Below are positions 7,421-60,118 of a DNA stretch of 64,000 nucleotides, piece after piece. Location of the stretch: positions 62,001 to 126,000 of the forward strand of contig SVGY01000005.1 in NCBI GenBank assembly GCA_015056145.1, read 5' to 3'. The stretch comes from Clostridiales bacterium (lineage in GTDB: Bacteria; Bacillota; Clostridia; Christensenellales; Aristaeellaceae). Position numbers and translations under genes: made by a program. A model generated the notes under the pieces. That model saw only the letters and a list, made by a program, of their open reading frames with translations, searched no databases and was not told the origin of the DNA. Each line of letters opens with the position of its first letter. The stretch's first letter is position 1.

Positions 7421-7897
7421 GGCAGGCAGGATGGCCCCCGTATCCTTCCCGTGCAATTGCCTGGAAACCATCCAACAAAATTGCACTTTTCTTTTGGTTG
7501 AAGCTTCGGGCCGCTGTGCAGCATTATATACACACCATCCGCCCGGCAGGCAGGATGGCCCCGTATCCTTCCCGTACAATTGCCTGGTGATAACCCAACA
7601 AAATTGCGCTTTTCTTTTGGTTGATGCTTCGGGCCGCTGTGCAGCATTATACACACACCATCCGCCCGGCAGGCAGGATGGCCCCCGTATCCTTCCCGTG
7701 CAATTGCCTGGTGATAACCCAACAAAATTGCGCTTTTCTTTTGGTTGATGCTTCGGGCCGCTGCGCAGCATTATACACACACCATCCGCCCGGCAGGCAG
7801 GATGGCCCCGTATCCTTTCCGTGCAATTGCCTGAAAACCATCCAACAAAATTGCGCTTTTCTTTTGGTTCTTTTCTTTTCTCAGAAAAGAAAAGAAC
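7421..7897. repeat. 124-bp tandem repeat (family R2) ending in a hairpin
   Basis: Units of 123-124 bp begin at 7421, 7545, 7668 and 7792. Each has GGCAGGCAGGATGGCCC, a copy of CAATTGCCTGG, then AAATTGCGCTTTTCTTTTGGTT and CTTCGGGCCGCTG. In the last unit the GGTT is followed not by the usual sequence but by a perfect inverted repeat at 7867-7897 (14-bp arms around TCTCA-like centre), whose final base overlaps the hsp33 stop codon. Read on the minus strand, the order is hsp33 stop, hairpin, AAAAGAAAAGCGC tail, then three more body units. The array fills the gap between the hsp33 and TPR genes. Confidence 0.9.
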
Positions 7898-8799
7898 TAC
7901 CCGCGGAGCGCCATCAGGTCTTCCTGGGAAAAATTGTACTTGGTCTTGCAAAAATGGCAGATCAGCTCGGCACCTTCCACTTCGTCCTCGATCATGGAAG
8001 TAAGCTCCTCTTTGCCAAGGGCGATGAGGGCCTTCTCCATGCGGCTGCGGCTGCAGTTGCAGCGGTAGCTGAGGGGAGTGCGCTCCAGGATGACAGGCTT
8101 GAGGCCGTCGAACCACTTGTGCATCAGGTCTTCCATGGGCTCGTAGCAGATTTCCCGGCTGATGTCGTAGAAAAGGGGGCTGCGCAGTTCCAGCTCGGTG
8201 ATGATGCTGTCGGGGCAGCCGGGCATGGTCTGCAAAAGCACGCCGCCGGCAGAAAGCACCGTCTCGCCGCTGACCAGTACGCCCAGCGCCTGCAGGGTGG
8301 GGGTCTGCTCGCTCTGTACATAGTAGCCGGCAAAATCCTCGGCGATCTCGCCGGAGAGCAGATTGGTCTGACCGATGTAGGGGGACTTCATGCCAAGATC
8401 CCGCACAACGGTCATGCGGCCGTCCTTGCCCACTACCATACCCACGTTCAGCTTGCCGTCAGGGCGCAGGGGCATTTCGATATTGGGTACGTCCACAAGG
8501 CCACGGACGCTTTCCTTGTCGGCCACGCAAACGATGCGGCCGATGGGGCCGCCGCCGTTGATGGTCACGGTAACGGACTGCTCGTCGCCCTTGAGCATGG
8601 CGCCCATCATGGCGGTGCCCATGAGGGTGCGGCCCAGTGCAGCGGTAACCACAGGGGATGTGTTGTGGATGGCAGCGCCCTGGGCCACGGTGTTGGTGCC
8701 GGTGAGCAAAAGGCCACGGACCATGCCGTCTGCAAGGGTGATGTGGTAGATCTGGTCTACCCGGTTATATAATTCTTTGATCTCGCTCATGTATTTCAC
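7897..8799 (-). CDS. hslO: Redox-regulated molecular chaperone Hsp33
   Basis: Hsp33 is a cytosolic holdase switched on by oxidation and unfolding. The 300-residue length is normal for the family. The C-terminal redox switch shows the four zinc cysteines as CNC (in YRCNCSRSR) and CHFC (in ICHFCKTKYNF), the CxC plus CxxC pattern. The N-terminal chaperone core is recognised by GRTLMGTAMMGAMLKGDE and the INGGGPIGR motif. I use the GTG at 8799 because AGGAAAGAG lies about 5 bases before it and it overlaps the upstream stop (GTGA); an ATG at 8790 is an alternative. It is co-transcribed behind a methyltransferase and a spore protein gene. Confidence 0.95.
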   Translation of the reverse strand: MKYMSEIKELYNRVDQIYHITLADGMVRGLLLTGTNTVAQGAAIHNTSPVVTAALGRTLMGTAMMGAMLKGDEQSVTVTINGGGPIGRIVCVADKESVRGLVDVPNIEMPLRPDGKLNVGMVVGKDGRMTVVRDLGMKSPYIGQTNLLSGEIAEDFAGYYVQSEQTPTLQALGVLVSGETVLSAGGVLLQTMPGCPDSIITELELRSPLFYDISREICYEPMEDLMHKWFDGLKPVILERTPLSYRCNCSRSRMEKALIALGKEELTSMIEDEVEGAELICHFCKTKYNFSQEDLMALRG

Positions 8800-9593
8800 T
8801 CTCTTTCCTCAGGCTGAGCGCTGATGTTCAGAAAATCGTCAGGGATCTGGGTAAGGGGCTTGCGTGCTGCCAGGAACCAGCGGCATTCCTTGTCGGAGGG
8901 GTCCTCCAGTTTGCGGTCTCCGTAAAGGGTTATGTCGGTAAAGCCGCACCGATACATCAGGTTGATGAGTAAATCCGCATCGTGGGCGTACTGCCGCTGC
9001 TGCTCGCCGATACGCTGATAGGTTTCCCCTTCCTGACGGACGAAAATGGCCAGATTCATATCCACGCAGCCCAGGCCCTCGTTGTAGCGGTTCTGCCACA
9101 GGTAGGCGATGTCCTCGTCCTCGTCGCCGATGAAGTGGTTGCCCAGTACCCGGCGCAGCTTGTAGGGGGTGCTCAGGTCAAAAAACAGACCGCCGCCCTC
9201 CCGGATCACCCGCCATGCCGCCTGAAAAAACTGAGTCAGTTCCTGCTCATCCTTAAGGTAGTTGAGGCCGTCGTTGGTGCAGAGCACTGCATCCATCTGC
9301 CGGTGCAGATGCAGGATGCGCATGTCCTGCTTCACAAAGGGGATCATAGCTCCGGCTTTGCGGGCCTTCTGAGAGGCCTCAAAAAGCATGTCCGGGCTCA
9401 GATCCACGCCGGTCATCTGGTAGCCCATAGCCGCCAGCGGAATGGTCAGGCTGCCGGTGCCGCAGGCGCATTCGCAAACCTTGCCCCGGGGAATGCCGTA
9501 GCGTTCCATCAGCGTATGGTAAAACCCGGCCCAGCCGGCATAATCCACGCCGGTCATCAACCGGTCATAAACGGATGCGAATGCGGTGTACAT
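8796..9593 (-). CDS. Class I SAM-dependent methyltransferase
   Basis: A 265-residue methyltransferase of the Rossmann-like class I fold. Motif I is VCECACGTGSLTIPLA, followed by the acidic residue binding the ribose of SAM in MTGVDLSPDML and by VKQDMRIL and LCTNDGLNYL for the later motifs. The substrate is not identifiable; similar stand-alone proteins act on small molecules. It starts 3 bases after the spore-protein stop and overlaps hsp33 by four bases, so the three genes form one operon. Confidence 0.87.
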   Translation of the reverse strand: MYTAFASVYDRLMTGVDYAGWAGFYHTLMERYGIPRGKVCECACGTGSLTIPLAAMGYQMTGVDLSPDMLFEASQKARKAGAMIPFVKQDMRILHLHRQMDAVLCTNDGLNYLKDEQELTQFFQAAWRVIREGGGLFFDLSTPYKLRRVLGNHFIGDEDEDIAYLWQNRYNEGLGCVDMNLAIFVRQEGETYQRIGEQQRQYAHDADLLINLMYRCGFTDITLYGDRKLEDPSDKECRWFLAARKPLTQIPDDFLNISAQPEERE

Positions 9594-9596
9594 GTG

Positions 9597-9815
9597 TCAT
9601 TCTCCTTCTTTTGGGGCATGCCTCCTGCGGCCGATAAGGCCGCCAATGCGCCCGGTTTCCTTGGCGCTGAGCCCGGCCCAGCCCACCTGACGCACACGGG
9701 GCAAAAGGCCCAGCTCGCTGGCAATTTCATATTTCATGCGCTGTTCCTTTGTAAGGTAAGTGAGCGCATTGCGGCGGATAGTACCCTCGATGAGGGCATT
9801 GCGTTTGTCTTTCAC
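9597..9815 (-). CDS. Small acid-soluble spore protein, alpha/beta type (SspF-like)
   Basis: A 72-residue basic protein with the signature of minor alpha/beta-type SASPs, which coat and protect DNA in dormant spores. The blocks MKYEIASELGLLPRV and GWAGLSAKETGRIGGLIGRR align with the KYEIA-ELG and the G-IG positions of SspF-like proteins. The start is GTG at 9815, 8 bases after AAGGAGG. Finding it at the head of an operon with a methyltransferase and Hsp33 is unusual, because SASP genes are normally monocistronic and under the forespore sigma factor G. It is the best direct sign that the organism sporulates. Confidence 0.8.
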   Translation of the reverse strand: MKDKRNALIEGTIRRNALTYLTKEQRMKYEIASELGLLPRVRQVGWAGLSAKETGRIGGLIGRRRHAPKEGE

Positions 9816-9878
9816 GGATAACGCCTCCTTTTGCCAGATAGCTTGGCAGAAAAGCGGAAATCCATACTTCCGGGGGCG

Positions 9879-10850
9879 TTACTGAGCCTGATCCTCTTCT
9901 TCGGAAAGTTCCTCTTCGTCCTCTTCCTTGTACAGGCCCCGGTTTACTTCAGCGCCTTCGATGTTGACGTTGATGTACTTATCGAAAATGCCGTTGGTGT
10001 AGCTGGCGGTAATGAAGCGGCTCAGGGCAAAGCCGATGATGATGTAGTAGGCGCCAAGGACAAGCAGCATCAGATAGGTGTACTGGCCCGGCAGCAGCAG
10101 TGCAACCACGAAAATAAGGGCAGGAACCACCAGCGTAATCACTCTGAACAAAACGCTCTGGGGCAGCCGTCCGATGGTCAGGATAAGGCTGTTGCGCAGA
10201 ACGCCGCCGTAGCCAAGGGTGTAGGTGACAATCTGGGGGTAGATGTACATCTGCATCATCATCCAGATAATGCCCAGAAGCACTACCAGCGACTGGGGAA
10301 TCAGGAAGAAAAAGCTGCTGGCTGCCCGATCGCCATAAAAGGTGTAGCAGATATATACCAGCAACGGCACGCAACCAGTAATAAAGGAGTTGAGCAGTGC
10401 AGGCTTCCAGTTGGCCTTGATGGCATCCTTGTAATCAGACCAGGCAAAGGCGTGCTCGTCCCGGGCCCAGTTGCGGGTAACATAGCAAAGGCCGGCAGTG
10501 GCAGGGCCGGTGATGCCGATGCAGGGAATCAGCCAGAGCAGGGTGTAAAAAATCGTTGAATGGAAAAAATCAGAAAACATTTCGGGGGTAATGGCCGTTT
10601 CCATGTTGAGCCGAGACGGATCTTCCATGGCGGCTCCCAAATTGAGAAGGGAAGAGATGGCCTTTACGATCACAATCATCGTCGGAATCCAGATAACAGA
10701 GTACACCAGATTCAGCCGTACCAGCCCGGACAGACGGGTGCGCAGCATCTCCCAGAACAGCTGCATTCTGGTGCGGGGAAGGTCTTCCTTTTCGTAGTCG
10801 CCCTGACCGCTCTTGCCGTAATAGTAGCGGTTCATCATATTCTTAAACAT
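9879..10850 (-). CDS. YesL/DUF624 family membrane protein
   Basis: A 323-residue integral membrane protein of the DUF624 (YesL) family, often found near carbohydrate uptake genes; the biochemical role is unknown. At least five hydrophobic segments are visible, including IWIPTMIVIVKAISSLLNL, the LLWLIPCIGITGPATAGLCY block typical of the family, and a C-terminal pair near ALIFVVALLLPG and LMLLVLGAYYIIIGF. The C-terminus is strongly acidic. I start at the ATG at 10850, preceded by AAGGAGG at 9 bases; the frame extends upstream but without start signals. It is transcribed away from the phosphoesterase gene at 11103. Confidence 0.85.
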   Translation of the reverse strand: MFKNMMNRYYYGKSGQGDYEKEDLPRTRMQLFWEMLRTRLSGLVRLNLVYSVIWIPTMIVIVKAISSLLNLGAAMEDPSRLNMETAITPEMFSDFFHSTIFYTLLWLIPCIGITGPATAGLCYVTRNWARDEHAFAWSDYKDAIKANWKPALLNSFITGCVPLLVYICYTFYGDRAASSFFFLIPQSLVVLLGIIWMMMQMYIYPQIVTYTLGYGGVLRNSLILTIGRLPQSVLFRVITLVVPALIFVVALLLPGQYTYLMLLVLGAYYIIIGFALSRFITASYTNGIFDKYINVNIEGAEVNRGLYKEEDEEELSEEEDQAQ

Positions 10851-10961
10851 AGGGGGCCTCCTTGGCAGGTCATCATGGCAATACCATGTACCTTTCATTA
10901 TAACATATCCATGCAAGAAAACGAAAGAGCGATTCCTGGCTGAATATCCGGGAAAAAAACG

Positions 10962-11001
10962 TTTACGGCCTCTTCTCGGGAAAGTGTGAACAGGCCGTAA
11001 A
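10962..11001. other. Perfect 10-bp inverted repeat in a divergent intergenic region
   Basis: TTTACGGCCT at 10962-10971 is repeated inverted as AGGCCGTAAA at 10992-11001, with a 20-base spacer. Read on the minus strand it is followed by ACGTTTTTTT, so it could be a terminator or attenuator upstream of the DUF624 gene, although no minus-strand gene precedes it. It could also be an operator. Confidence 0.45.
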
Positions 11002-11024
11002 TTCTTGTATATGTTCATCATCAA

Positions 11025-11053
11025 TTGCACATTGACGCAAGCTTTGCTATACT
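11025..11053 (+). promoter_or_regulatory. Sigma-A type promoter for the phosphoesterase gene
   Basis: TTGCAC, 17 bases, TATACT. It ends 49 bases before the ATG at 11103. Confidence 0.6.
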
Positions 11054-11102
11054 GTACTGGATTTTTTCCATCAACCGATTTTTCCGAAAGGGGCTGAAGC
11101 CC

Positions 11103-11804
11103 ATGCGAATTGCGCTCGTCGCCGACCTGCACGGCAACCGTGCCGCCACCCTTGCCCTGGAAAAGGATCTGCAAACCACCCGTCCGGACAGGATCATCTG
11201 CCTGGGGGATGTGGTGGGCAAAGGCCCCTGCAGCGACTTTACCTTTGACTGGGCCTTTGCCAACTGCGATTTGATCGTTGGCGGCAACTGGGATTTCGGC
11301 GTAGCGAAGAAGATGTTTCCCAAGGACGAGCCCTACTGGACTCAGCTGGGCCCGGAGCGTATGCAGAAGCTGAGCCAGCTGCCCACGGAAGCGGAGCTGA
11401 TGCTTTCCGGGCGCAGCATCCGGCTGATCCATGGCCGCCCCATCATGAAAGAACTCATCGGCACGGGAGCCACTCACGAGCAGATCGACCCGCTGTTCAT
11501 AAAGCCCGACGGCAGCCGCTGGGATGTAGTGGCTTTTGCGGATGCGCACCGTCACGGCATGCGCACCATCAACCCCGGCCTGTTCATCAACAGCGGCAGC
11601 GTGGGCAACGCTTTGGGCGTGCCCCTTTGCTGCTATGCTCTGTTAGAGGGTGAAGAAGGCACAGAGGACGCCCCCTTTGAGGTTCGCTTCCGCCAGGTCG
11701 GCTACGACAAGGCGCTGGCGCTGCAGGATGCGGCCCTTCACCCGGATATTCCCCGCATCGACACCTTCATCCGGGAAATACAGACCGGCCTTTACAGCAG
11801 ATAA
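11103..11804 (+). CDS. Metallophosphoesterase family protein
   Basis: A 233-residue calcineurin-like phosphoesterase. The metal-binding motifs appear in order: DLHGN (residues about 8-12, the D-x-H), GDVVGKGP (G-D), GGNWD (G-N, with D replacing the usual H/E context) and later LIHGRP and FADAHRHG, the last corresponding to the G-H-T/S-H site with altered residues. It resembles the YfcE/ApaH-like group that cleaves phosphodiesters, but the substrate is unknown. AAAGGGG precedes the ATG. The gene lies just upstream of a MATE transporter in the same direction with a 43-base gap. Confidence 0.83.
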   Translation: MRIALVADLHGNRAATLALEKDLQTTRPDRIICLGDVVGKGPCSDFTFDWAFANCDLIVGGNWDFGVAKKMFPKDEPYWTQLGPERMQKLSQLPTEAELMLSGRSIRLIHGRPIMKELIGTGATHEQIDPLFIKPDGSRWDVVAFADAHRHGMRTINPGLFINSGSVGNALGVPLCCYALLEGEEGTEDAPFEVRFRQVGYDKALALQDAALHPDIPRIDTFIREIQTGLYSR

Positions 11805-11847
11805 CCGCCCTTTGCGGCCTCCACCATCACCCTGAGGTATACTGCCA

Positions 11848-13215
11848 ATGAAAAAAACCGCTTACATACGGGATATGACCAGCGGCTCCATCATCCGCCA
11901 TATCATCACCTTTGCCATTCCCCTTCTGGTGGGCAACCTGTTCCAGCAGCTCTACAACCTGGTAGATACCATGGTGGTGGGCTACCGGCTGGGCGACCAG
12001 GCCATTGCCGCTATCGGCGCCATTGTGTCCCTCTATTCCATGATCGTGGATTTTGCCTGCGATCTCAACAACGGTTACGGCATCATCGTTACCCAGCGCT
12101 TTGGGGCCGGCGATCCGGATCAAATGCGCAAGTCCGTTGCCGGCATGATGGAGCTGAACCTGTTCGCCGGAATCCTGCTGCCCACCCTGTCGCTGGTTTT
12201 CCTCAAGCCCATGCTGCATCTCATGAATACCCCCGACGAGATCTTCGGGCAGTCCTACGCTTACATTTCCATCATTTGCGCAGGCATCCCCGTTACCATC
12301 GGCTACAATATGTTTGCCTCCATCCTGCGGGCGGTGGGCAACAGCCGCTCGCCCCTGGTGTTCCTGATCCTGTCCAGCCTTCTGAACGTTGCGCTGGATA
12401 TCCTCTTCGTTTGGGTTCTGAACATGGGCATTGGCGGCGCTGCCCTGGCCACGGTGCTGGCGCAGCTTGCGGCCACGCTGTGCAGCGGTACATATGTTTG
12501 GAAGCATTACCGGCAATATCTGCCCAAAAAAGAAGACCTGCGTGTGCCGGGCCGCCTGCTTGTGGCTCTTGTTTTAAGCGGCGGTTCCCTGGCGATGATG
12601 TCCGTTGTGGTGGAGTTTGGCACCGTTATTTTCCAGAGCGCAGCCAACCTTCTGGGCAAAATGTACATCACCGCCCATTCCTCTGCCCGTCGCCTGCTGA
12701 TCATGATGATCCAGCCCATTATCAGCCTTTCCGTTGCCAACATGACCTTTATCGGCCAGAACTGGGGTGCAGGCAACAAGGAGCGCATCCAGCCTGCCAT
12801 CCGCCTCTCCCTCCTGATGGAGCTGCTCTGGGGCGCCTTCGTGGTGGCGGTATTCTTCCTTTTCGGCAGACAACTGATCCACTTCACCACCGGCACTACC
12901 GACACGGACATCCTGAAAAACGCCGTGCTGAGCCTGCGCATCAACTGCGTACTCTACCCGGTGCTGGGCGTGCTCTTCTGCATGCGCAACACCATGCAGG
13001 CCATGGGCCACAAGGTTATTCCCGTGCTTTCCAGCGTTATCGAGCTGATCATGAAGCTGATCGCCGTTGCGCTATTCATCCCAAAGTGGGGCTTCATCGG
13101 CGTATGCATCACCGAGCCGGTAACGTGGCTTCTAATGACCGCATTCCTTCTGGGCTGCTATCTATTCTTCCGGAAAAAGTGGTTTGGGGGGAAACTTTCA
13201 GAAAACTGTGTTTGA
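11848..13215 (+). CDS. MATE family efflux transporter
   Basis: A 455-residue polytopic membrane protein of the multidrug and toxic compound extrusion family. About 12 hydrophobic segments are present in two similar halves. Family blocks include SIIRHIITFAIPLLVGNLFQ and LYNLVDTMVVGYRLGDQAI near the N-terminus and the GIGGAALATVLAQL stretch. Such proteins export cationic compounds using a sodium or proton gradient; the substrate cannot be told. The stop is followed at once by a 225-bp repeat array. Confidence 0.93.
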   Translation: MKKTAYIRDMTSGSIIRHIITFAIPLLVGNLFQQLYNLVDTMVVGYRLGDQAIAAIGAIVSLYSMIVDFACDLNNGYGIIVTQRFGAGDPDQMRKSVAGMMELNLFAGILLPTLSLVFLKPMLHLMNTPDEIFGQSYAYISIICAGIPVTIGYNMFASILRAVGNSRSPLVFLILSSLLNVALDILFVWVLNMGIGGAALATVLAQLAATLCSGTYVWKHYRQYLPKKEDLRVPGRLLVALVLSGGSLAMMSVVVEFGTVIFQSAANLLGKMYITAHSSARRLLIMMIQPIISLSVANMTFIGQNWGAGNKERIQPAIRLSLLMELLWGAFVVAVFFLFGRQLIHFTTGTTDTDILKNAVLSLRINCVLYPVLGVLFCMRNTMQAMGHKVIPVLSSVIELIMKLIAVALFIPKWGFIGVCITEPVTWLLMTAFLLGCYLFFRKKWFGGKLSENCV

Positions 13216-14118
13216 CAGGTACGGCGGGCACGGACTCTGGCGGTGCAGGCGGGAGGAGGCTTTTCCCCGGGAAAAGCCCCCTCCCGCACCCTCCCGAAAA
13301 GCGTATATGGGCATAGATATTTTGGTCAGGAAGGGACTGCCTGTGTGCGGTGGTTTCTTTTTTGTGTGCCAACTTGGATGAAAATGCGGTCTTCTTTTGC
13401 TTCTTTTCTTCTGGCACAGAAGAAAAGAAGGCCCCCGGCAGGCTAAACAGCGGGCACTGGCTGTGGCGGTGCAGGCGGGAGAAGGCTTTTCCCCGGAAAA
13501 AGCCCCCTCCCGGACCCTCCCGAAAAGCGCATATGGGCATAGATATTTTGTGCAGAAAGGGACTGCCTGTGTGCGGTGGTCTCTTTTTGTTTGCTGATTT
13601 GGCTGCAAATGCGGTCTTCTTTTGCTTCTTTTCTTCTGACGCAGGAGAAAAGAAGGCCCCCGGCAGGGTAAACAGCGGGTACTGGCTGCGGCGGTGCAGG
13701 CGGGAGAAGGCTTTTCCCCGGGAAAAGCCCCCTCCCGCACCCTCCCGAAAAGCGTATATGGGGAAGGGTTTTTTGTGCAGGAAGGGGCTGCCGGTTTGCG
13801 GTGGTCTCTTTTTGTTTGCTGACTTGGCTGCAAATGCGGTCTTCTTTTGCTTCTTTTCTTCTGACACAGAAGAAAAGAAGGCCCCCGGCAGGGTAAACAG
13901 CGGGTACGGACTCTGGCGGTGCAGGCGGGAGAAGGCTTTTCCCCGGGAAAAGCCCCCTCCCGTACCCTCCCGAAAAGCGTATATGGGGAAGGGTATTTTG
14001 TGCAGGAAGGGGCTGCCGGTTTGCGGTGGTCTCTTTTTTGTGTGCCAACTTGGCTGCAAATGCGGTCTTCTTTTGCTTCTTTTCTTCTGACACAGAAGAA
14101 AAGAAGGCCCCCGGCAGG
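13216..14118. repeat. 225-bp composite palindromic repeat (family R1), four units
   Basis: Four units of 225-226 bp; the GCCCCCGGCAGG landmark falls at 13431, 13656, 13881 and 14107. Each unit has three inverted repeats in fixed order: GCGGGAG...CTCCCGC enclosing GGCTTTTCCC/GGGAAAAGCC; a terminator-like arm pair around GGACTGCCGG and GGTCTCTTTTT; and CTTCTTTTCTTCTG/CAGAAGAAAAGAAG with a 3-base loop. Core orientation follows the minus strand, that is downstream of acn. The same family recurs at 40302, 48585 and 62858. Confidence 0.92.
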
Positions 14119-14142
14119 GCCCTCCACAGCCCTATCGCATCC

Positions 14143-16833: not shown

Positions 16834-17838
16834 ATGGAGCCCATGGTCAGCATCTGCACCACCACCTACCAGCACGCCCTGTACATCGAAAAGGCGCTGG
16901 ACAGCTTTCTGATGCAGAAAACCAACTTTCCCTTTGAGATTCTTGTACACGACGACGTTTCCACCGACGGCACCGTGGAGATCCTCAAGCGTTATGCCGA
17001 AAAATACCCGGACATCGTCAAGCCGCTCTTTGAGGAGGAGAATCAGTACTCCAAGGGCGTTCCCATCAACGAGACCTTCAATTTTCCCCGTGCCCGGGGC
17101 AAATACATCGCCCTGTGCGAGGGTGACGACTGCTGGCTGACCGAGGACAAGCTGCAAAAGCAGGTGGACTACATGGAAGCCCATCCGGACTGCACTTTCT
17201 GCTTCACCAACGGCATCATCACCGACGTATCCGGTCAGGCTCCGGACCGGGAATTTGTACCCTACTACGAGGAAGAAAAAGTCTTCTTCCACGGTCAGGA
17301 TCACAGCTACGAGCTGGGCGACATGGCCGGCCTCACCTTTGTGCCCACTGCCAGCTACCTTTTCCCCCGGGCCATATGGGAACGGCTTCACGAGGAATAT
17401 TCCCAAAAGATGTGCGAGCATGGCGACCTGAAAATGCGCCTGTACTTCACCTCCGAGGGGTACGGCCGCTACCTGCATGAATTCAGCTGTCTCTACCGTC
17501 AAAACGTTTCCGGCAGCGCCTTTCAGGTATGGCGCAAGGAAAGCGCCGAGAAAACCGCACGCCGGGCCGCCACCGTATCGGAAATGCTGGACGACCTGAA
17601 CCTGCGCACCGGCGGCAAATACGAGGCTGGTCTCCAGCCCCTGAAAGACCGCTACCTCTTTGTGGCACTCTGGAACACCACCGAAAAACGGCCCCTCTCC
17701 CGCCCGGAACTGCGCCGTGTCTACAAGGGTCTGCCCCTGAAGCAGCGTCTGCGCTGGCGCATCAAGAGGGTCGTACCCAGGAAGCTTATTGATTTTGCGA
17801 AGAGGACTTACTTTTCTTTTCTGAGAAAAGAAAAGTAA
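16834..17838 (+). CDS. Glycosyltransferase family 2 protein
   Basis: A 334-residue GT-A fold glycosyltransferase. The N-terminus VSICTTTYQHALYIEKAL is the usual nucleotide-sugar-binding start; ILVHDDVSTDGT matches the family-2 D-D-x-S-x-D-G-T block; ALCEGDDCWLTEDKLQKQV contains the metal-binding DxD equivalent (EGDDCW) and the following lysine-rich segment. It probably adds a sugar to a surface polysaccharide or glycolipid. No membrane helix is visible. Oddly, the last codons (TYFSFLRKEK) and the stop are supplied by the hairpin of an R3 repeat, so the original C-terminus has probably been replaced or extended. Confidence 0.9.
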   Translation: MEPMVSICTTTYQHALYIEKALDSFLMQKTNFPFEILVHDDVSTDGTVEILKRYAEKYPDIVKPLFEEENQYSKGVPINETFNFPRARGKYIALCEGDDCWLTEDKLQKQVDYMEAHPDCTFCFTNGIITDVSGQAPDREFVPYYEEEKVFFHGQDHSYELGDMAGLTFVPTASYLFPRAIWERLHEEYSQKMCEHGDLKMRLYFTSEGYGRYLHEFSCLYRQNVSGSAFQVWRKESAEKTARRAATVSEMLDDLNLRTGGKYEAGLQPLKDRYLFVALWNTTEKRPLSRPELRRVYKGLPLKQRLRWRIKRVVPRKLIDFAKRTYFSFLRKEK

Positions 17839-18125
17839 GCAAAAGAAAAGCGCAATTTGCTTGAGGGATATTGGGAGTTGGCTTTTCTTCCCGGGGTTGC
17901 ATTCCTCACACGTCCGGGCTTTTCTGAGAAAAGAAAAGCAAGCAAAGGAAAAGCGCAATTTGCTTGAGGGATATTGGAAGTTAGCTTTTCTTCCTGGGGT
18001 TGCATTCCTCACAAATCGGGCTTTTCTGAGAAAAGAAAAGCAAGCAAAGTAAAAGCGCAATTTTGCTTGAGGATACGGGAGTTGGCTTTTCTTCCCGGGA
18101 TTACATTTTCCGCGCAGGCTGGGCT
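17811..18125. repeat. 102-bp tandem repeat (family R3), three units
   Basis: The hairpin CTTTTCTGAGAAAAG recurs at 17816, 17919 and 18021, and a decayed form near 18123, giving a 102-103 bp period. Each hairpin is followed by AAGCAAAGGAAAAGCGCAA, TTGCTTGAGGGATATTGG-type sequence and GCTTTTCTTCCCGGGG. The first hairpin contains the stop codon of the glycosyltransferase at 17836-17838. From 18126 to 18280 I see only AT-rich sequence leading to the next gene. Confidence 0.9.
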
Positions 18126-18280: not shown

Positions 18281-19219
18281 TTGAATTCCGCTCCAACTCC
18301 CATCCATTTCCTTTTCGAGGATGAAAACCACAACCGCATCTACATCAAGCGGGAAGACCTGCTTCCCTTCTCCTTTGGCGGCAACAAAGTGCGCATCGGC
18401 CTTGAGTTGCTTGAGGACATGCGTTCCCAAGGCTGCGATCATCTCATCGCCTATGGCAACGCCCGCTCCAATCTGTGCCGGGTACTGAGCAATCTCTGCG
18501 CCGGGCAGGGCATTCCCTGCACCATTCTCTCCCCCGCTGACGACGACGGCACCGTCAGCGAAAGCTTTAATCAGCGCATGTGTCTTTCCTTTGGGGCGGA
18601 AATTGTACCCTGTCTGAAAACGGGAGTGAAGGCCACGGTGGAAGCCGCTCTCGCAAAAAGCAGAGCGTCAGGCCGCAAGCCTTACTACATCTACGGCAAT
18701 TCGCTGGGCGACGGCAATCTCATCACCCCTGTGAAAGCCTACCGCAAGGTATGGGATGAACTGCTTTCCCAGCAGGCGCAGCTGAACCTTTCCTTTGACC
18801 ATCTGTTCCACGCTTCCGGCACCGGCATGACCCAGTCCGGCCTCATCTGCGGCCAGCTGCAGCAGGGCGGCGGGACGTCCATCCATGGCATTTCCATCGC
18901 CCGCAGCACGGAAAACGGCACCGCCCACATCCTGCGTTACATCCGTGCCTTCATGGGGGACGAAGCCATTGCCCCGGCCATCGACTTTGTGGATGACTAC
19001 GCCATGAGCTACGGCATTTTCTCTCCGGAGATGGCAGATTGCGCTTCCCGCATGATGCGCCTCTACGGCCTGCCGCTGGATCTGACCTACACCGGCAAGG
19101 CCTTCTACGGCATGCTGGAAGAAATCCGCCGGCGGGGATATCGGGCGCAGAACGTGCTGTTTGTGCACACCGGCGGAACACCGTTGTTTTTTGATAAAGT
19201 TGGGGTATCCATTCTCTGA
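18281..19219 (+). CDS. PLP-dependent D-cysteine desulfhydrase / ACC deaminase family protein
   Basis: A 312-residue fold-type II PLP enzyme. The internal aldimine lysine is expected in LLPFSFGGNKVR, preceded by IYIKREDL, exactly the family pattern. HASGTGMTQSGLICG is the phosphate-binding loop with the usual G-x-G-x-T order, and FVHTGGTPLFF is the conserved C-terminal motif. Members remove sulphide from D-cysteine or open the ring of aminocyclopropane carboxylate; I cannot tell which. I use a TTG start at 18281 because AAGGAGG lies 9 bases upstream and no ATG is close. Two terminators follow. Confidence 0.88.
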   Translation: MNSAPTPIHFLFEDENHNRIYIKREDLLPFSFGGNKVRIGLELLEDMRSQGCDHLIAYGNARSNLCRVLSNLCAGQGIPCTILSPADDDGTVSESFNQRMCLSFGAEIVPCLKTGVKATVEAALAKSRASGRKPYYIYGNSLGDGNLITPVKAYRKVWDELLSQQAQLNLSFDHLFHASGTGMTQSGLICGQLQQGGGTSIHGISIARSTENGTAHILRYIRAFMGDEAIAPAIDFVDDYAMSYGIFSPEMADCASRMMRLYGLPLDLTYTGKAFYGMLEEIRRRGYRAQNVLFVHTGGTPLFFDKVGVSIL

Positions 19220-24952: not shown

Positions 24953-25112
24953 TGTTGAAAAAACCATAGGTATCGATCAGAGTCGCACATCTTGCTCCTA
25001 CGGTGCTTGCTGTGCTTGCTGAAAAGGGCTGCGGCGCAAGGTTTGTGGGCTCTGCCCACACCCGGCAGGGGGATGATCCCCCTGCACCCCACACTTTTTG
25101 ACACCCCGAGGG
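24953..25112. repeat. Diverged single copy of the 189-bp R4 repeat
   Basis: Shares the order of landmarks with the array at 1966-2749: TTGAAAAA, a (T/G)CCGCA/TCGCAC-ATCTTGC block, CGGTGCT(T/C)GCTGTGCTT, GCTGCGGC, GTGGGCTCTGCCCACACCC and GGCAGGGGGATGATCCCCC. The 5' half has many substitutions. It follows a gene stop by about 35 bases. Confidence 0.85.
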
Positions 25113-40301: not shown

Positions 40302-40498
40302 TTCCCTGCCGGGAGCCTTCTTTTCTTCTGTGTCAGAAGAAAAGAAGCAAAAGAAGACCACATTTGCAGCCAAATCAGCAAACAAAAAGAGACCACCGCA
40401 CACAGGCAGTCCCTTTCTGCACAAAATTTCTATGCCCATATACGCTTTTCGGGTGGGTTCGGGAGGGGGCTTTTCCCGGGGAAAAGCCTCCTCCCGCC
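40302..40498. repeat. Single R1 composite palindromic repeat, inverted
   Basis: One unit of the 225-bp family in the opposite orientation to the array at 13216. The CTTCTTTTCTTCTG/CAGAAGAAAAGAAG hairpin comes first, then GACCACCGCACACAGGCAGTCC and the GGCTTTTCCCGGGGAAAAGCC-like palindrome. It lies between the tRNA promoter and the 3' end of the DUF6273-carboxypeptidase gene. Confidence 0.88.
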
Positions 40499-48584: not shown

Positions 48585-49245
48585 GAGTTATCGTGGTGCA
48601 AGCGGGAGAAGGCTTTTCCCCGGGAAAAGCCCCCTCCCGCACCCTCCCGAAAAGCGTATATAAGGAGCATGCATTGTATGAAAAAGAGACTCCCGGTTTG
48701 CGGTAGTCTCTTTTTGCACGCTGAGTTGTATACAAATGTGGTCTTCTTTTGCTTCTTTTCTTCTGACACAGAAGAAAAGAAGGCCCCCGGCAGGGACAGC
48801 AGCGGGGACGTGCAGTGGCGGTGCTGGCGGGAGAAGGCTTTTCCCCGGGAAAAGCCCCCTCCCGTTCCCTCCCGAAAAGCGTATATAGGGAGCATGTATT
48901 GTAAGAAAAAGAGACTCCCGGTTTGCGGTAGTCTCTTTTTGCACGCTGAGTTGTATACATATGTGGTCTTCTTTTGCTTCTTTTCTTCTGACACAGAAGA
49001 AAAGAAGGCCCCCGGCAGGGGCAGCGGCGGGGATGGCTTGCAGCGGTGCAGGCGAGAGAAGGCTTTTCCCCGGGAAAAGCCCCCTCCCGCACCCTCCCGA
49101 AAAGCGTATATAGGGAGCATGTATTGTATGAAAAAGAGACTGCCGGTTTGTGGTAGTCTCTTTTTGCACGCTGAATTGTATACATATGTGGTCTTCTTTT
49201 GCTTCTTTTCTTCTGACACAGAAGAAAAGAAGGCCCCCGGCAGGG
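48585..49245. repeat. R1 composite palindromic repeats, three units
   Basis: Three 225-bp units with GCCCCCGGCAGG at 48783, 49008 and 49233. Here the middle hairpin is close to perfect: AAAAAGAGACT and AGTCTCTTTTT arms around CCCGGTTTGCGGT. Core orientation is minus strand. The array ends 20 bases from the stop of the 27-residue frame at 49266. Confidence 0.92.
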
Positions 49246-53994: not shown

Positions 53995-54027
53995 ACAGGT
54001 CACTCCTTTTGTTAATGTGCTGTTTCC

Positions 54028-54056
54028 ATTATAACCCTGTTAGCCTGCCGGGGCAA
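54028..54056 (-). promoter_or_regulatory. Promoter of the esterase gene
   Basis: Minus strand TTGCCC, 17 bases, TATAAT, 34 bases before the ATG. Confidence 0.68.
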
Positions 54057-54072
54057 GGAAATTGTGCGGTGT

Positions 54073-55488: not shown

Positions 55489-55516
55489 ACCGTCCCTTCC
55501 TATCCACACTTACTTC

Positions 55517-55545
55517 AGTATATACAGTACCGGAAGAAAAACCAA
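55517..55545 (-). promoter_or_regulatory. Promoter of the three-gene hypothetical operon
   Basis: Minus strand TTGGTT, 17 bases, TATACT, 29 bases before the ATG at 55488. Confidence 0.5.
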
Positions 55546-55610
55546 TTCCCTCCCCGGGAAAAAAATTTTTTTATTCCCTCCCGCCATCAGGCTCCTTTTC
55601 GTGCCTTTTT

Positions 55611-56378
55611 TCATCCCCGGGGCAGCTTCTTCACCGCAAAGCCGCCCTCCATGGTAAAGGCCTCCCGGAACCCTGCCTTGTAGCAAATGTGCTCCGACGG
55701 GCCTGCCCACTGCCAGCAGACGGGCAGTGCATTCTGCCTGCAATAATCCACCACAAAGCTCAGCAGCTCACTGGCGTAGCCCTGGCCCCGGTGCTCCTTT
55801 GCTGTTACGATGTAATCAAAGCGGGTATTCCCCAGCGGCGAAAGGTGGATATCCGTGTATACCACTGCTTTGCCCTGCAGGCAGCCCACAAACAGCAGGC
55901 CGTTTTCCTGCTCCGCCCTGTTTTTCGTTACCGCCACCTCCCAGGGTTCCCCCGAGGGAATGAGAATGTCCCTGGCGATGCGCTCATCCCATTGCGACAG
56001 CACTTGGATATCCAGCCTTTTGGGCGTTACGATGGCATTTTCCGCGGACAGGATCATGACCCGGTGATCTTCCTCCGGGGTGTAGGTAAAGCCGCAGGAA
56101 GCAAGAGTTTCCAGGTTGTTCCGGAAATAATCCTTCTCAAAAGGATGATAGATGGAGGCATCCATGCCCCGTCCGTGGTAAAAGGCGGCGATGTCCTCCA
56201 GCGCCCCACGCAGGTCGCCGATTCTGTCCGGATAGATGCAGGCGTGGTTGCCGTCGTAGGAATCCGGGTTATCGGGCATGTAATAAAGCGTGCCGTAGTC
56301 CCGCTCTTCATACTGGGCAAAGAGGCGGGGAAAGTCGTTTTCCTCCTGTTTGATGGAGGCGATAATCTTTTCGTCCAT
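55611..56378 (-). CDS. GNAT family N-acetyltransferase
   Basis: A 255-residue acetyltransferase in which the C-terminal half is the GNAT fold: FDYIVTAKEHRGQGYASELL is the acetyl-CoA loop (R-G-x-G-x-A) and EHICYKAGFREAF is the usual end motif. The N-terminal half (about 125 residues) is a separate domain, as in two-part GNAT proteins. The substrate is unknown. ATG follows AAAGGAG. It lies 13 bases downstream of the DUF1810 gene in the same direction and is probably co-transcribed from the promoter at 56904. Confidence 0.85.
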   Translation of the reverse strand: MDEKIIASIKQEENDFPRLFAQYEERDYGTLYYMPDNPDSYDGNHACIYPDRIGDLRGALEDIAAFYHGRGMDASIYHPFEKDYFRNNLETLASCGFTYTPEEDHRVMILSAENAIVTPKRLDIQVLSQWDERIARDILIPSGEPWEVAVTKNRAEQENGLLFVGCLQGKAVVYTDIHLSPLGNTRFDYIVTAKEHRGQGYASELLSFVVDYCRQNALPVCWQWAGPSEHICYKAGFREAFTMEGGFAVKKLPRG

Positions 56379-56391
56379 GGGAAGACTCCTT

Positions 56392-56826
56392 TCAGAGGGA
56401 CTTCAACATACCCAGGGTACGCCTGTCTGGTTTTCCATTGTAGAATTTATCCAGCACCTTCTGGAAAATATCCGTTTCCGGGGATGCCTCCCGGAACAGC
56501 GTCATGCAGGAGCACACCTTCAGGTCGTCCGGCGAGGGCAGAATGTAGTTGATAGGGCCCTTTTGCTCATACAGCGCCTGGCTGATCTCCACAAGGCGGC
56601 TGCCCAGTACCGGATGCTGCATATACTCTCGTGCTTCCTGCAGATTCTGTATGCCGTAATAGTTGGCCGTGCTGCTGTAGCCCAGCCCGTACAGTTGGGG
56701 AAAAACATACCATATCCAATGGCTTGTTTTGCACCCCCTGCGGATTTCACCAAGGGCTGTTTCATAGGCAGGATAAAAGGTTTTCCCTTCCTGTGCTGCA
56801 AGAAACTTTTCTGCATCCAAATTCAT
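56392..56826 (-). CDS. DUF1810 family protein
   Basis: A 144-residue protein of the DUF1810 family, small cytoplasmic proteins of unknown function found in bacteria and some plants and fungi. The diagnostic blocks are FLAAQEGKTFYPAYETALGEI, KTSHWIWYVFPQLYGLGYSS, YGIQNLQEAREYMQHPVLG and SPDDLKVCSCMTLF, all in family order. I start at ATG 56826, 5 bases after AGGAGG; the upstream ATG at 56844 lies before that site. Confidence 0.92.
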   Translation of the reverse strand: MNLDAEKFLAAQEGKTFYPAYETALGEIRRGCKTSHWIWYVFPQLYGLGYSSTANYYGIQNLQEAREYMQHPVLGSRLVEISQALYEQKGPINYILPSPDDLKVCSCMTLFREASPETDIFQKVLDKFYNGKPDRRTLGMLKSL

Positions 56827-56903
56827 AATATCCTCCTGTCCCATCCTGCCGCATCATGGCAGCAAAGACGTTTTTCCTATTGTGACGTTTTTCATCTACC
56901 CGA

Positions 56904-56932
56904 ATTATAGCACATATTGCCGACCGTGACAA
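56904..56932 (-). promoter_or_regulatory. Promoter of the DUF1810-GNAT operon
   Basis: Minus strand TTGTCA, 17 bases, TATAAT, 77 bases before the ATG. Confidence 0.7.
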
Positions 56933-57014
56933 AGTGCGTGCCGGCTTGTGTTCCTGTACGGTTTATGCTACCATTGCGGATAGAGATCAACCGTTTTTTT
57001 AGGAGGAAAGATTT

Positions 57015-57437
57015 ATGAAAATCACGCCTACCCTGAATTTCGGCGGATGCTGCCGGGAAGCAATACAGCTGTATGCAGAAGCCTTCAACGGCACCATCTC
57101 CTGCATGGTCACTTACCGGGAGGCCAACGATCCGGCCTACCTGCCCCTGCTAAGGGAAGATCAGCTGGACTATATCTACCATGCAGAGCTCTTGCTCGGC
57201 CACGAGCGCATCATCATGAGCGACCATGCGGATATCGATTTTACAGTGTGCTACTCCAATTTTCTTACCATTATGTACGATACAAAGGAAGAGGTACAGC
57301 GTGCCTACACCCTCATGAAGGAAGGCAGCACCACTATCTAAGAGATGGCCGCCACCCCCTACAGTTCCTGCCGTGTGGTTTTTGTGGACCGTTTCGGCAT
57401 CCGCTGGGGAATCATGACCGAACAAACAGAGCGTTAA
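57015..57437 (+). pseudogene. VOC/PhnB-like protein interrupted by an in-frame TAA
   Basis: A glyoxalase/VOC-fold protein of the PhnB-like type, starting MKITPTLNFGGCCREAIQLY after AGGAGG. The frame stops at a TAA at 57339-57341 after EGSTTI, but in the same frame the next 31 codons read EMAATPYSSCRVVFVDRFG and IRWGIMTEQTER before a second TAA at 57435. The DRFGIRW block is the conserved C-terminal end of this family. One base change therefore splits a normal-length (about 140 residue) protein. It could be a recent pseudogene, an assembly error or a readthrough site. Confidence 0.8.
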
Positions 57438-57477
57438 TGGCTGCCCGTAGGGGCTTGGGCATAATTCATTTTCCCAA

Positions 57478-57514
57478 AAACCCTCTGAGGGCTCACTGCC
57501 CATGCAGAGGGTTT
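57478..57514 (+). terminator. Terminator after the VOC gene
   Basis: AAACCCTCTG and CAGAGGGTTT arms around a 17-base loop; the T-run is short. Confidence 0.7.
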
Positions 57515-57529
57515 GCTGTATACAGCTAC

Positions 57530-57558
57530 TTGCCAAGCCGACTGTTTTTGTTTATACT
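57530..57558 (+). promoter_or_regulatory. Promoter of recF
   Basis: TTGCCA, 17 bases, TATACT, 33 bases before the GTG at 57592. Confidence 0.62.
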
Positions 57559-57591
57559 CAGTTTAGTTTTTTATGAAGGGGAGGCTGCGCC

Positions 57592-58713
57592 GTGCATTTT
57601 TCTTTGCTCAGGGTCAAGCAGTTCCGCAACTACCCCTTTCTGGAGCTGGCGCCCTCGCCGGGCATCACCGTTCTCTACGGCCAGAACGGCGCTGGCAAAA
57701 CCAATCTTTTGGAGGCCATGCACCTGCTTTCCCTGGGCCGCAGCCACCGCACCCCCACCGACCGGGAAATGATCGCCCAGGGGGAAGCCGCCGCCCTTAT
57801 CCACGGCCAGACCCAGCGCATGGACGGCCGTCACGATATCGAGGTACGCCTCTATGCCCAGGAAAAGCCCCAGAAGCGGGTCATGCTTTACGGCAAGCCT
57901 GCCCAGCGCATATCCGACATGATGGGCCACGCCACGGTGGTCATGTTTTCGCCGGAGGATATACGCATCGTCCGGGACGGCCCCGCTGCAAGGCGTCGCT
58001 TTGTGGATATGCAGCTGAGCCAGATCCGCCCGGAATACCTCAAGGTACTGCGAACCTATCTCAGCGTGCTGGAAAGCCGAAACACCCTTCTCAAGCAGGA
58101 CAAACTGGGGCTTGTGTCGGATTTTTCCGCCGAGCTGGACATCTGGGACGAGCAGCTTGCCCGGGCCGCTGCGCCGCTGGTGAGGCACCGCCGCTGGTTT
58201 CTTGAGGAGCTGAAAAAATATGCCGCCGAAGAATATGCAGGAATAGCGGAAAATCCCGGCGAACCTTTCTCTCTGGAATATATGGGCAGCCTTGCCCGGG
58301 CCGACGACCCTGCAGCCAGAATGCTGGAAGGCCTCCGGCGCAGCCGGGAGGAGGACCGCCGCCGGCTGTATACCACCTTCGGCCCCCACCGGGATGATGT
58401 GGCCCTGATGCTTTACGGCAGGGATCTCAGGGCCATGGGCAGTCAGGGCCAGCTGCGCACCGCCGTTCTGAGCATGAAGCTGGGCGAGATTCGCCTCATC
58501 CGTCAGGAGATGGGCGAAGCTCCCACACTGCTTCTGGACGATGTTTTCAGCGAGCTGGATGTGAAGCGGCGCAGTGCATTGCTGCGCTCCACCACCGGTA
58601 TACAAACCCTCATCACCTGCACCGATCGTCAGGATGCCGCCGACGCACGGGCCGACCAGTTCATCCGTGTATCCAGCACAGCAGACGGCGCAGGCTGCAT
58701 TCAGGTGGAATGA
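57592..58713 (+). CDS. recF: DNA replication/repair protein RecF
   Basis: A 373-residue ABC-type ATPase that helps load RecA at gaps. Walker A is VLYGQNGAGKTNLLEA (residues about 27-42); the signature-like region is SQGQLRTAVLSMKLGEI; Walker B with D-loop is TLLLDDVFSELD. The RNYPFLEL N-terminus and SPEDIRIVRDGPAARRRFVD block are diagnostic. Start is GTG with a GGGGAGG upstream. In most bacteria recF sits in the dnaA-dnaN-recF-gyrB group near the origin; here it has its own promoter and no such neighbour in the window. Confidence 0.96.
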   Translation: MHFSLLRVKQFRNYPFLELAPSPGITVLYGQNGAGKTNLLEAMHLLSLGRSHRTPTDREMIAQGEAAALIHGQTQRMDGRHDIEVRLYAQEKPQKRVMLYGKPAQRISDMMGHATVVMFSPEDIRIVRDGPAARRRFVDMQLSQIRPEYLKVLRTYLSVLESRNTLLKQDKLGLVSDFSAELDIWDEQLARAAAPLVRHRRWFLEELKKYAAEEYAGIAENPGEPFSLEYMGSLARADDPAARMLEGLRRSREEDRRRLYTTFGPHRDDVALMLYGRDLRAMGSQGQLRTAVLSMKLGEIRLIRQEMGEAPTLLLDDVFSELDVKRRSALLRSTTGIQTLITCTDRQDAADARADQFIRVSSTADGAGCIQVE

Positions 58714-58819
58714 TCCCGCCATCATCATCCTCTTTCTTCCCCTGGGGAATTCCCGGCCCCGGCCGGTTTCCATACAGAATCATTTGCCATTATTCTCACC
58801 ACAGAAAGGATGTATCCAC

Positions 58820-59755
58820 ATGTTTGGACGCAGACCGGAAGGCCGCCGTGTTAAAGGCCTGGATCCCATCATTCAGATCACGCCCTACCTGATGCCCCAG
58901 CGTTGCGACGCACAGGTATTCCTCAGCTACGATGCCGATTACGAACCCCTGATGAAGTACATCGCCGCCAAGAGCCGTGAAGGTGTAAAGATCACCTTCA
59001 TGGAGCTGCTCATTGCAGCCTACGTCCGTGCTGCCTCTCAGGTGCCGGAAACCAACCGCTTCATCATGAACAAGCAGTTCTACAACCGTACCGAGCTCAC
59101 CGTCAGCTTCACCCTCCTGCTGGACACCAAGGACGATTCCATCGAAGAAAATGCCGTAAAGATCAAGTTCGATCCCTCCGACACCATCTTTGACGTCAGC
59201 GCCCGTGTGAAGCAGGCCATTGTGGAAAACCGCAAGGTGGAAGAACCTGGCTTCCTCATCAAGCTGGCTTCCGCACTGCTGAAGGTGCCCGGCCTTGCCA
59301 ACCTGGTAGTGGGCCTGGTAAAGCTGCTGGACCGCTACGGCATCTGCCCCAAGGCTCTCATTGATTTCCTGCCCTTCCACTGCAGCATGTTCATCACCAA
59401 CATGGCCTCCATCGGCATGACCCGTGTATACCACCACATCTACAACTTCGGCAACACCAGCCTGTTCATGTCCCTGGGCACCCCCATCCGTTCCAATGCT
59501 GTGGACCGTGAAGGCAAGGTATACCGCAAGGCCGTGCTGCCCATCGGCATGACTGCTGACGAGCGTGTTTGCGGCGGCGCCATGTACGCCCGCCTCTTCG
59601 CTCACATGAAGCGCATCCTCGCTCACCCCGAAGAGCTGGAACTCCCCCCCGAAACCGTCCGCTTCAACCACGGCTGCGAGTTCCACGTCGCCAAGCCTGA
59701 TAACGTTGCTGTTCCCCAGAAGGACGAAGGCAACGGCGTTACGGTGGAAGGCTGA
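58820..59755 (+). CDS. Acyltransferase-fold protein (2-oxo acid dehydrogenase E2-like), catalytic motif degraded
   Basis: A 311-residue protein matching the chloramphenicol acetyltransferase-like catalytic domain of lipoyl E2 enzymes, without lipoyl or subunit-binding domains. VKITFMELLIAAYVRAASQ and RFIMNKQFYNRTELTVSFTLL correspond to the core strands, and NFGNTSLFMSLGTPIR to the late strand. The catalytic HRxxDG motif, expected at about residue 260, reads DERVCGGAMYARLF, so the histidine and aspartate are lost. Stand-alone E2-like proteins of this kind are common in Clostridia and their role is unknown. ATG follows AAAGGATG. Confidence 0.8.
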   Translation: MFGRRPEGRRVKGLDPIIQITPYLMPQRCDAQVFLSYDADYEPLMKYIAAKSREGVKITFMELLIAAYVRAASQVPETNRFIMNKQFYNRTELTVSFTLLLDTKDDSIEENAVKIKFDPSDTIFDVSARVKQAIVENRKVEEPGFLIKLASALLKVPGLANLVVGLVKLLDRYGICPKALIDFLPFHCSMFITNMASIGMTRVYHHIYNFGNTSLFMSLGTPIRSNAVDREGKVYRKAVLPIGMTADERVCGGAMYARLFAHMKRILAHPEELELPPETVRFNHGCEFHVAKPDNVAVPQKDEGNGVTVEG

Positions 59756-59787
59756 TTGAGGGAACTGCGTTGAGGACGGGGAACGGC

Positions 59788-60118
59788 GTTCTTTCTTTTC
59801 TGAGAAAAGAAAGAACCAAAGAAAAGCGCATTTATATTTGAATTGAGGCAAGCAACAGAGCTCCCGGGTGGCCGGGGCTCTTGTTGTTTTTCAGCGGCCT
59901 ACGGGACGGGGGCGGGGGACGGGGGGCGGCGTTCTTTCTTTTCTGAGAAAAGAAAGAACCAAAGAAAAGCGCTTTTTTATTGGGATTGTGGCAAGCACCC
60001 ATGCACAAAAACAGGGCCTCCCATCCGGAAGACCCTGTCTGCAATGATCTGCTGGCTGTCAAAGCGTATGGCCTTTGCCATGCGCTTTTCTTTTGCTTCT
60101 TTTCTGAGAAAAGAAGGC
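59788..60118. repeat. R3-type hairpin elements, three copies
   Basis: Hairpins at 59788-59816 and 59931-59959 (GTTCTTTC...GAAAGAAC) read on the plus strand and are each followed by CAAAGAAAAGCGC. A third at 60096-60116 reads on the minus strand (CTTCTTTTCTCAGAAAAGAAG then CAAAAGAAAAGCGCATGG). The plus copies lie downstream of the gene ending at 59755, the minus copy downstream of the gene ending at 60143, so each matches the sense of its nearest gene. Between them are GC-rich runs and no gene. Confidence 0.88.

Follow-up and report, generated by a model that had tools for sequence, protein, structure and literature searches.

A hairpin with a mirrored purine tail behind genes of a Clostridiales bacterium: a candidate A/T-rich intrastrand-triplex element

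What is the short hairpin that several otherwise dissimilar intergenic repeats share in one stretch of a Clostridiales genome, and what might it do behind genes? The stretch, hereafter the window, is 64,000 nucleotides (nt) long and spans positions 62,001–126,000 of contig SVGY01000005.1 (C8) in assembly GCA_015056145.1, a 2.77 Mb genome in 31 contigs (here G000); its sister species is genome G016. An initial annotation, made from the letters of the window, described the hairpin as the common core of repeat families R1, R2 and R3 and took it for a 3'-end element, perhaps a terminator or an RNA-stabilising structure. It missed what the present analysis finds to be the main feature of this core: the purine tail behind the hairpin is the mirror image of the purine arm. 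About evenly balanced, in our judgement, is the case for reading the core as an A/T-rich intrastrand-triplex (PIT-type) element of class II layout, ending larger units that would act as portable gene 3' ends.

The core and its mirrored third strand

The core module consists of a T/C arm (Y), its A/G complement (R), a C and a second A/G strand, the CAAAAGAARRCSGCA-like tail, and it forms one end of larger repeat units of about 100–225 bp. The pattern CTTTTCTN{0,24}AGAAAAG matches 22 times in the window, against 0.01 expected from shuffles. Genome-wide, the hairpin pattern matches 136 times per strand (4 for the reversed control) and the directional pattern of hairpin plus tail 57 + 64 times (1 + 2 for the reversed control). 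A covariance model of the core, based on 28 elements, hits the window at 18 places, of which 16 are strong and two are degenerate R3 units; the remaining model rows are reverse readings of those same palindromes. The module is present at the places that the initial annotation named, less uniformly than it had stated: the R2 hairpin occurs in one of four units only, and the left arms of the last two R3 units are shortened. An Rfam scan of the window at gathering scores returned two tRNAs only and gave the core no RNA-family match.

Larger sets were taken from stretches of G000 and G016 picked for holding the motif, those of G016 being drawn from the first 100 of 127 matches. These gave 221 hairpins with a perfect stem of at least 9 bp, a Y arm of 75% pyrimidine and a purine run of at least 7 nt beginning no more than 6 nt away, CTTTTCC-type 9-bp hairpins being excluded. 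A further filter (mirror match of at least 7, linker of no more than 5 nt, overlaps merged) left 207 elements, with 7–11 triplets per element. Loop 1 is 3 nt long in 193 of these and 2–6 nt in all; loop 2 is 5 nt in 183, 3–6 nt in 204 and 7–10 nt in three. The base stem, usually of 4 bp, overlaps the 5-nt second loop; it comes in 23 kinds and varies with compensation (CTTC/GAAG, GTTC/GAAC, GTAC/GTAC and others), perfect stems having been a selection requirement for this pairing count.

Side-by-side comparison of copies shows the mirror relation directly: R arm GAAAAAGAAAGTAC goes with tail AAAGAAAAAG, and R arm GAAAAGAAGAGAAGCA with tail GAAGAAAAG. Among 87 distinct arm/tail forms, obtained from the 221 hairpins with any purine run of at least 7 and no mirror filter, the mirror fits better in 47, a direct copy in three, and 37 are ties; judged over the full length of the tail run, 65 fit the mirror and 26 the direct copy. 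The mean mirror match is 8.74, against 7.82 with tails shuffled among arms (standard deviation 0.07, maximum 8.02, 500 shuffles). The order of A-runs gives a further comparison: of 47 distinct forms with unequal A-runs and the C linker, 40 keep the mirror order, seven have equal tail runs and none has the direct order.

This run-order count was free of any mirror filter, as was a generic finder that treats both orders alike. The finder called 73 third strands mirror-only, 17 both and none direct-only in 304,028 bases of G000, and 36, 78 and none in 319,239 bases of G016; when its second loop is set too short it under-counts, and direct then exceeds mirror in G016 (48 versus 11). Neither kind of third strand turned up with it in five other genus members (331,753 bases), around Hsp33 in six nearer relatives (35,542 bases) or among 20 shuffled windows, and 73 further Hsp33 loci yielded no mirror and four direct calls.

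Alignment A2 is restricted to forms whose stem is 14 bp and whose loop is 3 nt, 28 out of 84 distinct ones; it was drawn from the 207 mirror-filtered elements, and its column counts lean towards the mirror. Its hairpin columns are paired in 392/392 cells (perfect stems being required on selection), and the three tail columns that vary are complementary to the Y arm, in parallel orientation, in 84/84 cells, with 21 double changes. In a third-strand comparison the mirror is exact in 192 of 227 cases, and opposite A the third strand has A at 1601 of 1649 positions and T at 12, some of the latter from poor alignment.

Duplication produces repeats that are direct or inverted, and none that are mirrored. 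A downstream complement with which the tail might pair was considered as the cause of the mirror and set aside: among 90 elements that have no such partner inside 250 nt, 56 favour the mirror (53 by the whole-run count), 34 are ties and none favours the direct copy.

Placement at gene ends and distribution

The elements lie between genes, in gaps that contain gene 3' ends, and avoid divergent gaps. Only three of the 207 fall within gene calls, which came from a simple codon-score finder made for this analysis. In the fetched stretches of the two genomes, to which these base rates apply, convergent gaps contain elements in 50 of 74 cases, tandem gaps in 44 of 142 and divergent gaps in 4 of 67 (convergent versus divergent, p = 5e-15; tandem versus divergent, p = 3e-5). 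The idea of a 3'-end element joined to different bodies is supported by this distribution and by the bodies themselves, which differ within and between genomes. The claim that the core reads in the sense of the upstream gene fails: in tandem gaps 18 are sense, 16 antisense and 10 both. The apparent pattern arises because, in convergent gaps, either orientation is sense to one gene. Of random orientation and random position, which the initial annotation would have held against its element, the first is seen in tandem gaps; the second is not seen.

The elements of the window are as follows.

7482..7742, minus strand: three more R2 units, with the tail AAAAGAAAAG(C/T)GCA alone and no hairpin
7855..7897, minus strand: core element (Y 14, loop 3, R 14, C, mirror tail), first R2 unit, beginning in the Hsp33 stop codon
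13388..13430, minus strand: core element, R1 array unit
13613..13655, minus strand: core element, R1 array unit, imperfect stem
13838..13880, minus strand: core element, R1 array unit
14064..14106, minus strand: core element, R1 array unit closest to the aconitase stop (14193)
17808..17851, plus strand: core element, R3, with the glycosyltransferase stop (17836-17838) in the base of the R arm
17919..17954, plus strand: second R3 unit, left arm shortened, model E 0.001
18021..18056, plus strand: third R3 unit, left arm shortened, model E 0.009
40317..40359, plus strand: lone R1 copy, antisense to both neighbours
48740..48782, minus strand: core element, R1 array
48965..49007, minus strand: core element, R1 array
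49190..49232, minus strand: core element, R1 array
59788..59827, plus strand: core element with run lengths 3,4, 32 nt behind the 2-oxoacid_dh-like gene, R arm GAAAAGAAAG mirrored by tail AAAGAAAAG
59931..59970, plus strand: second copy of the 59788 element
60084..60116, minus strand: inverted partner, 26 nt behind the DUF4867 gene
63006..63048, minus strand: core element, R1 array, antisense to both neighbours
63232..63274, minus strand: core element, R1 array
63457..63499, minus strand: core element, R1 array

Pfam names the neighbouring genes Hsp33, glycosyltransferase 2, aconitase and DUF4867, and places the gene earlier called E2-like in 2-oxoacid_dh. Base 7897 does lie in the Hsp33 stop and the glycosyltransferase stop inside its hairpin, as first described; the two copies that had been listed as not fitting, at 40302 and 62858, are indeed misfits (40317 and 63006-63499). 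The last codons and stop of the glycosyltransferase gene are formed by the hairpin (17800-17838), and its G016 ortholog ends without one. The opposite end of R1 (e.g. 13230-13330 and 62870-62915) is a G/C-rich repeat, CGGG(A/T)GGG..CGGGAGGGGGCTTTTCCCGGGGAAAAGCCTTCTCCCG, whose pattern matches 42 times in the G000 stretches and four times in those of G016; judged by its letters, it looks like a second triplex-type motif, of class I order and with a sequence closer to that of E. coli. At 1967-2834 lies another, separate tandem repeat, of 189 bp and rich in strong GC hairpins, and at 24958-25099 a related single copy; the core covariance model matches neither. The Hsp33 of the window is 89% identical to that of RGIG9011, a metagenome-assembled genome (MAG) from water-deer gut, and 70% identical to that of a 'Candidatus Limiplasma' MAG.

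Many G016 elements start within a few nucleotides of the stop codon, and in several, not all, cases in both genomes antisense copies lie 160-170 nt behind the stop, which suggests that the whole unit, rather than the core, is set behind the stop. Of the G000 gene ends that have an element no more than 300 nt away (52), 19 have a clear ortholog in the fetched G016 stretches and 15 of those orthologs have an element as well; of 169 G000 ends lacking one, 44 have such an ortholog, with an element in 8 (p = 8e-6); the G016 stretches in this comparison were themselves picked for holding elements. Unit type and number differ at the same gene between the two species, and inverted pairs in G016 are mostly 121-124 or 167-169 nt apart.

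Terminator-like features are seen in the units and not in the core. The core alone, an A/T-rich stem followed by A/G, has no T tract after the Y-R hairpin and so lacks the pattern of an intrinsic terminator, which the whole unit shows, with a hairpin and T tract inside it. Terminator-like hairpins, which are pattern calls on sequence and not mapped RNA ends, lie within 250 nt in 21/25 (G000) and 51/55 (G016) cases where a sense element is no more than 80 nt from the gene end, in 23/27 and 25/26 where another element is nearby, and in 38/75 and 26/46 where the end has no element. Under a stricter perfect-stem rule they are few, 15/88 and 6/119 within 150 nt. A unit-free ortholog can hold an ordinary-looking terminator, as does Hsp33 in G016 and as do the G000 genes ending at 19219 and L026:9901; this points to a 3'-end unit that occupies the site of the sister species' ordinary terminator. 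A GC hairpin similar to GCCTCCGGCGGCCCTGCCGGGGGC directly precedes the Y arm at G000 loci L021, L038, L039 and L041 and G016 loci L131, L132, L138, L141 and L142, and the Y arm after such a hairpin resembles a terminator's T tract.

The covariance-model scan that the initial annotation had proposed finds the core in G000, G016 and a few other Clostridia. Within the genus, 2 of 17 genomes match, G000 and G016 (up to 150 candidates scored per genome, negatives included), with 145 and 152 model counts, reverse readings of palindromes included. Across 396 genomes of the order, a draw that left out G016, the directional pattern occurs 44 + 45 times in G000 and at most a handful of times in any other. 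A survey of 391 genomes of the class, with 16 candidates scored per genome under stricter filters, gave 12 with model matches at 1e-5, G000 included. Re-search at 1e-3 counted 75 in G572, 28 in G480, 22 in G699, 15 in G036, 10 in G481 and 8 in G577, with low counts in G066 and G617 (5 each), G637 (2), and G501 and G594 (1 each).

The run lengths in these other Clostridia vary: 6,3 in G066; 3,5 in G572; 5,3 in G637; 4,3 in G617; 4,3 and 5,3 in G480. Among their 44 distinct forms, 25 favour the mirror and six the direct copy, with 13 ties. Three of the six (two from G480, one from G066) have no C linker and appear to be read partially or from the opposite strand. At 30 loci, under a cruder open reading frame (ORF) rule, 10 elements are tandem sense, three tandem antisense, seven convergent, three divergent, six within an ORF and one at an edge. 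In G036 a related short palindrome with a tail gives direct 7 and mirror 6 with loops of at least 2, and a tie by eye with a one-base loop. G036 and G055, from other families of the order, also hold many copies of the palindrome CTTTTCTTTAAGAAAAG, often paired about 130-320 bp apart on one G036 contig. The hairpins of G047 and G055 were not confirmed as core elements; other palindromes occur there.

Readings of the element

In the reading that we favour, the unit would be a portable gene end in which a GC hairpin and T tract release the RNA. The core would take up a triple-helical fold, for a short time at least, on DNA left single-stranded by transcription or replication. An intrastrand triplex needs a mirror strand, and the third strand would be kept because the element so folds. 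The fold might then hinder polymerases past the gene end, limiting readthrough into the next or opposing gene, and the same hindrance may favour slippage and with it the growth of tandem arrays. Polymerase pausing at and behind H-DNA sequences is described in PMC5295012.

The triples could be of two kinds. The third strand is almost entirely A/G when read in the sense direction, hence T/C on the complement, and we infer that T.A-T and C+.G-C on the complementary strand (class IV) suit it at least as well as sense-strand A.A-T and G.G-C. That the third strand has hardly any T, though the purine motif allows T, fits a pyrimidine code on the complementary strand; shared ancestry of the copies could also account for it. 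According to PMC4666352, RNA cannot form purine-motif triplexes, and the pyrimidine type is driven by T-A-T triplets. A fuller version, which we put forward tentatively and think doubtful as a whole, would have base triples covarying in some Clostridia such that the triple helix itself is selected, a portable 3' end whose sequence turns over while the genes stay the same, and, given a third strand of A/G only, a working form in which the triplex is of pyrimidine type and lies on the complementary strand or in antisense RNA.

Several observations weigh against the triplex reading. Random orientation in tandem gaps makes for a weaker case for a transcription-directional role. The mean direct match is also slightly above shuffles (7.91 versus 7.79, standard deviation 0.06, maximum 8.02), a direct copy fits better in 3/87 forms of the G000/G016 set and 6/44 from other Clostridia, and many copies are related by duplication, so that distinct forms are not fully independent. 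One G066 and two G036 direct-better forms do have the linker and may oppose the mirror rule. Since the base stem overlaps loop 2, the full hairpin and the triplex probably cannot form together and would be alternative states. For E. coli, according to PMC4666352, earlier work saw neither promoter nor terminator activity from PIT elements, and the paper's own in vivo footprinting gave a stable triplex no support.

A plain RNA hairpin, with Y-R stabilising or ending mRNAs and the tail a by-product, agrees with the energies predicted for four copies of the window, between -14.7 and -19.3 kcal/mol, with the closeness of elements to stop codons and with the nearly always paired base stems of 23 kinds, under the selection noted above; a GC hairpin directly precedes the Y arm in 25/88 and 8/119 elements, where the Y arm could serve as U tract. 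We nevertheless hold it unlikely, for it leaves the mirror tail unexplained, no U tract follows the Y-R hairpin and orientation in tandem gaps is random; as purine-motif triplexes are absent in RNA (PMC4666352), sense RNA would gain nothing from the tail. Nor does the mirror rule follow if the units are mobile repeats of the REP type (repetitive extragenic palindromes) or miniature inverted-repeat transposable elements (MITEs), with a transposase recognising hairpin ends and inserting units behind stop codons. More than 100 dispersed copies, their presence in 2 of 17 genus genomes, inverted pairs in G016, tandem arrays and either orientation close behind stops would all suit such mobility, which still seems improbable to us: the only Y1 transposase match in G000 is of the IS200 type and scores 31.2 bits with NF047646, under the REP-associated cut-off of 80; a full Y1 transposase is also found in G002, which has no elements; and two exact core patterns had no match in viral contigs, nor an exact R1 unit in plasmids. 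The Y1 transposase near one element (contig C14 of G000) was rejected as a REP-associated (RAYT) driver, being IS200-type. For the MITE question, orthologous sites look too diverged for defining unit ends.

We rate equally low the proposal made for E. coli triplex motifs, that the element stalls replication and raises variation and is selected or tolerated for it. Tandem arrays, sequence turnover at shared gene ends and a patchy distribution are as in the motif of PMC4666352, but element-bearing gene ends have a sister-species element more often than element-free ends do, and divergent gaps are strongly avoided. A switch between alternative hairpins, Y pairing with R or with the tail, could draw on symmetric forms that let the tail pair with Y (the 26 of 87 copied whole in direct order) and on antiparallel Y-tail pairing in 237 of 252 A2 cells when G-U pairs, needed in 15, are included. 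The pairing breaks in the other 15 cells and only one of nine antiparallel pairs changes on both sides, while direct-only third strands number 0 against 109 mirror-only ones in the stretches of the two genomes and unequal A-runs take the direct order in none; this strand-exchange reading is disfavoured and strikes us as very improbable. That short A/G tracts merely appear mirrored by chance or copying is hardly credible, even for tracts of 7-11 triplets in two letters, since the observed mirror match exceeds that of permuted tails, shuffles and sampled relatives give zero, and distant Clostridia show other run lengths.

Comparison with known systems

The initial annotation knew of no described class with these bodies, but the core has the layout of one. 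The class II intrastrand triplex (PIT) motif of Holder et al. 2015 (PMC4666352) comprises a Y arm, an R arm and a reverse-Hoogsteen purine strand, searched for with loops of 1-6 nt. The core has the same Y arm, R arm and purine third strand on one strand, the mirror order of the latter following the A.A-T and G.G-C rule (65/87 whole runs, 192/227 exact, 84/84 cells of the parallel columns), and fits the stem of 6-15 nt and loops of 1-6 nt, loop 2 being longer in 3/207.

With the BoxC/PIT/TMECO elements of E. coli and other Proteobacteria, as given in PMC4666352, it shares the order of Y, R and purine strand, short loops, an intergenic location, inverted pairs and very uneven numbers among close relatives. 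The motif CCCTCNCCC...GGGNGAGGG is G/C-rich, and most of the copies listed have T in their third strand; it has no strand bias and lies upstream of ORFs more often than downstream (PMC4666352). The present element is A/T-rich, with a third strand of nearly all A/G, sits at gene 3' ends, and has a variable base stem, covarying run lengths and bodies forming tandem arrays. Compared by eye, the T/A-rich core does not conform to the BoxC/TMECO consensus CCCTCNCCCN3-6GGGNGAGGGN3GGGNGAGGG of that paper.

H-DNA mirror repeats resemble the R arm plus third strand, a homopurine mirror repeat with a short spacer; the Y arm on the same strand and the compensating base stem are not needed by H-DNA. REP elements and bacterial interspersed mosaic elements (BIMEs) are likewise dispersed intergenic hairpins with inverted pairs; here there is a third strand, and no REP-associated transposase exceeded the cut-off among the Y1 matches scanned, a set without the second, partial one of G016. 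Like intrinsic terminators, the units hold GC hairpins with T tracts and occupy terminator sites of the sister species, whereas the core hairpin is A/T-rich and followed by A/G rather than a T tract.

The layout is already known. The A/T-rich Clostridia form, the covariation of its third strand, its place at gene 3' ends and its arrays were not found in print among open-licence PMC papers, and as far as these searches go they are new. Whether bacterial intrastrand triplex motifs do anything is an open question in the field. The E. coli motif is conserved, and its purine arm as printed in PMC4666352, GGGAGAGGG in most copies, reads the same backwards, so that mirror and direct copy are indistinguishable there. 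In the present element the two can be told apart in dozens of natural variants, which favour the mirror; they offer base-triple evidence from sequence alone and ready-made sets for tests.

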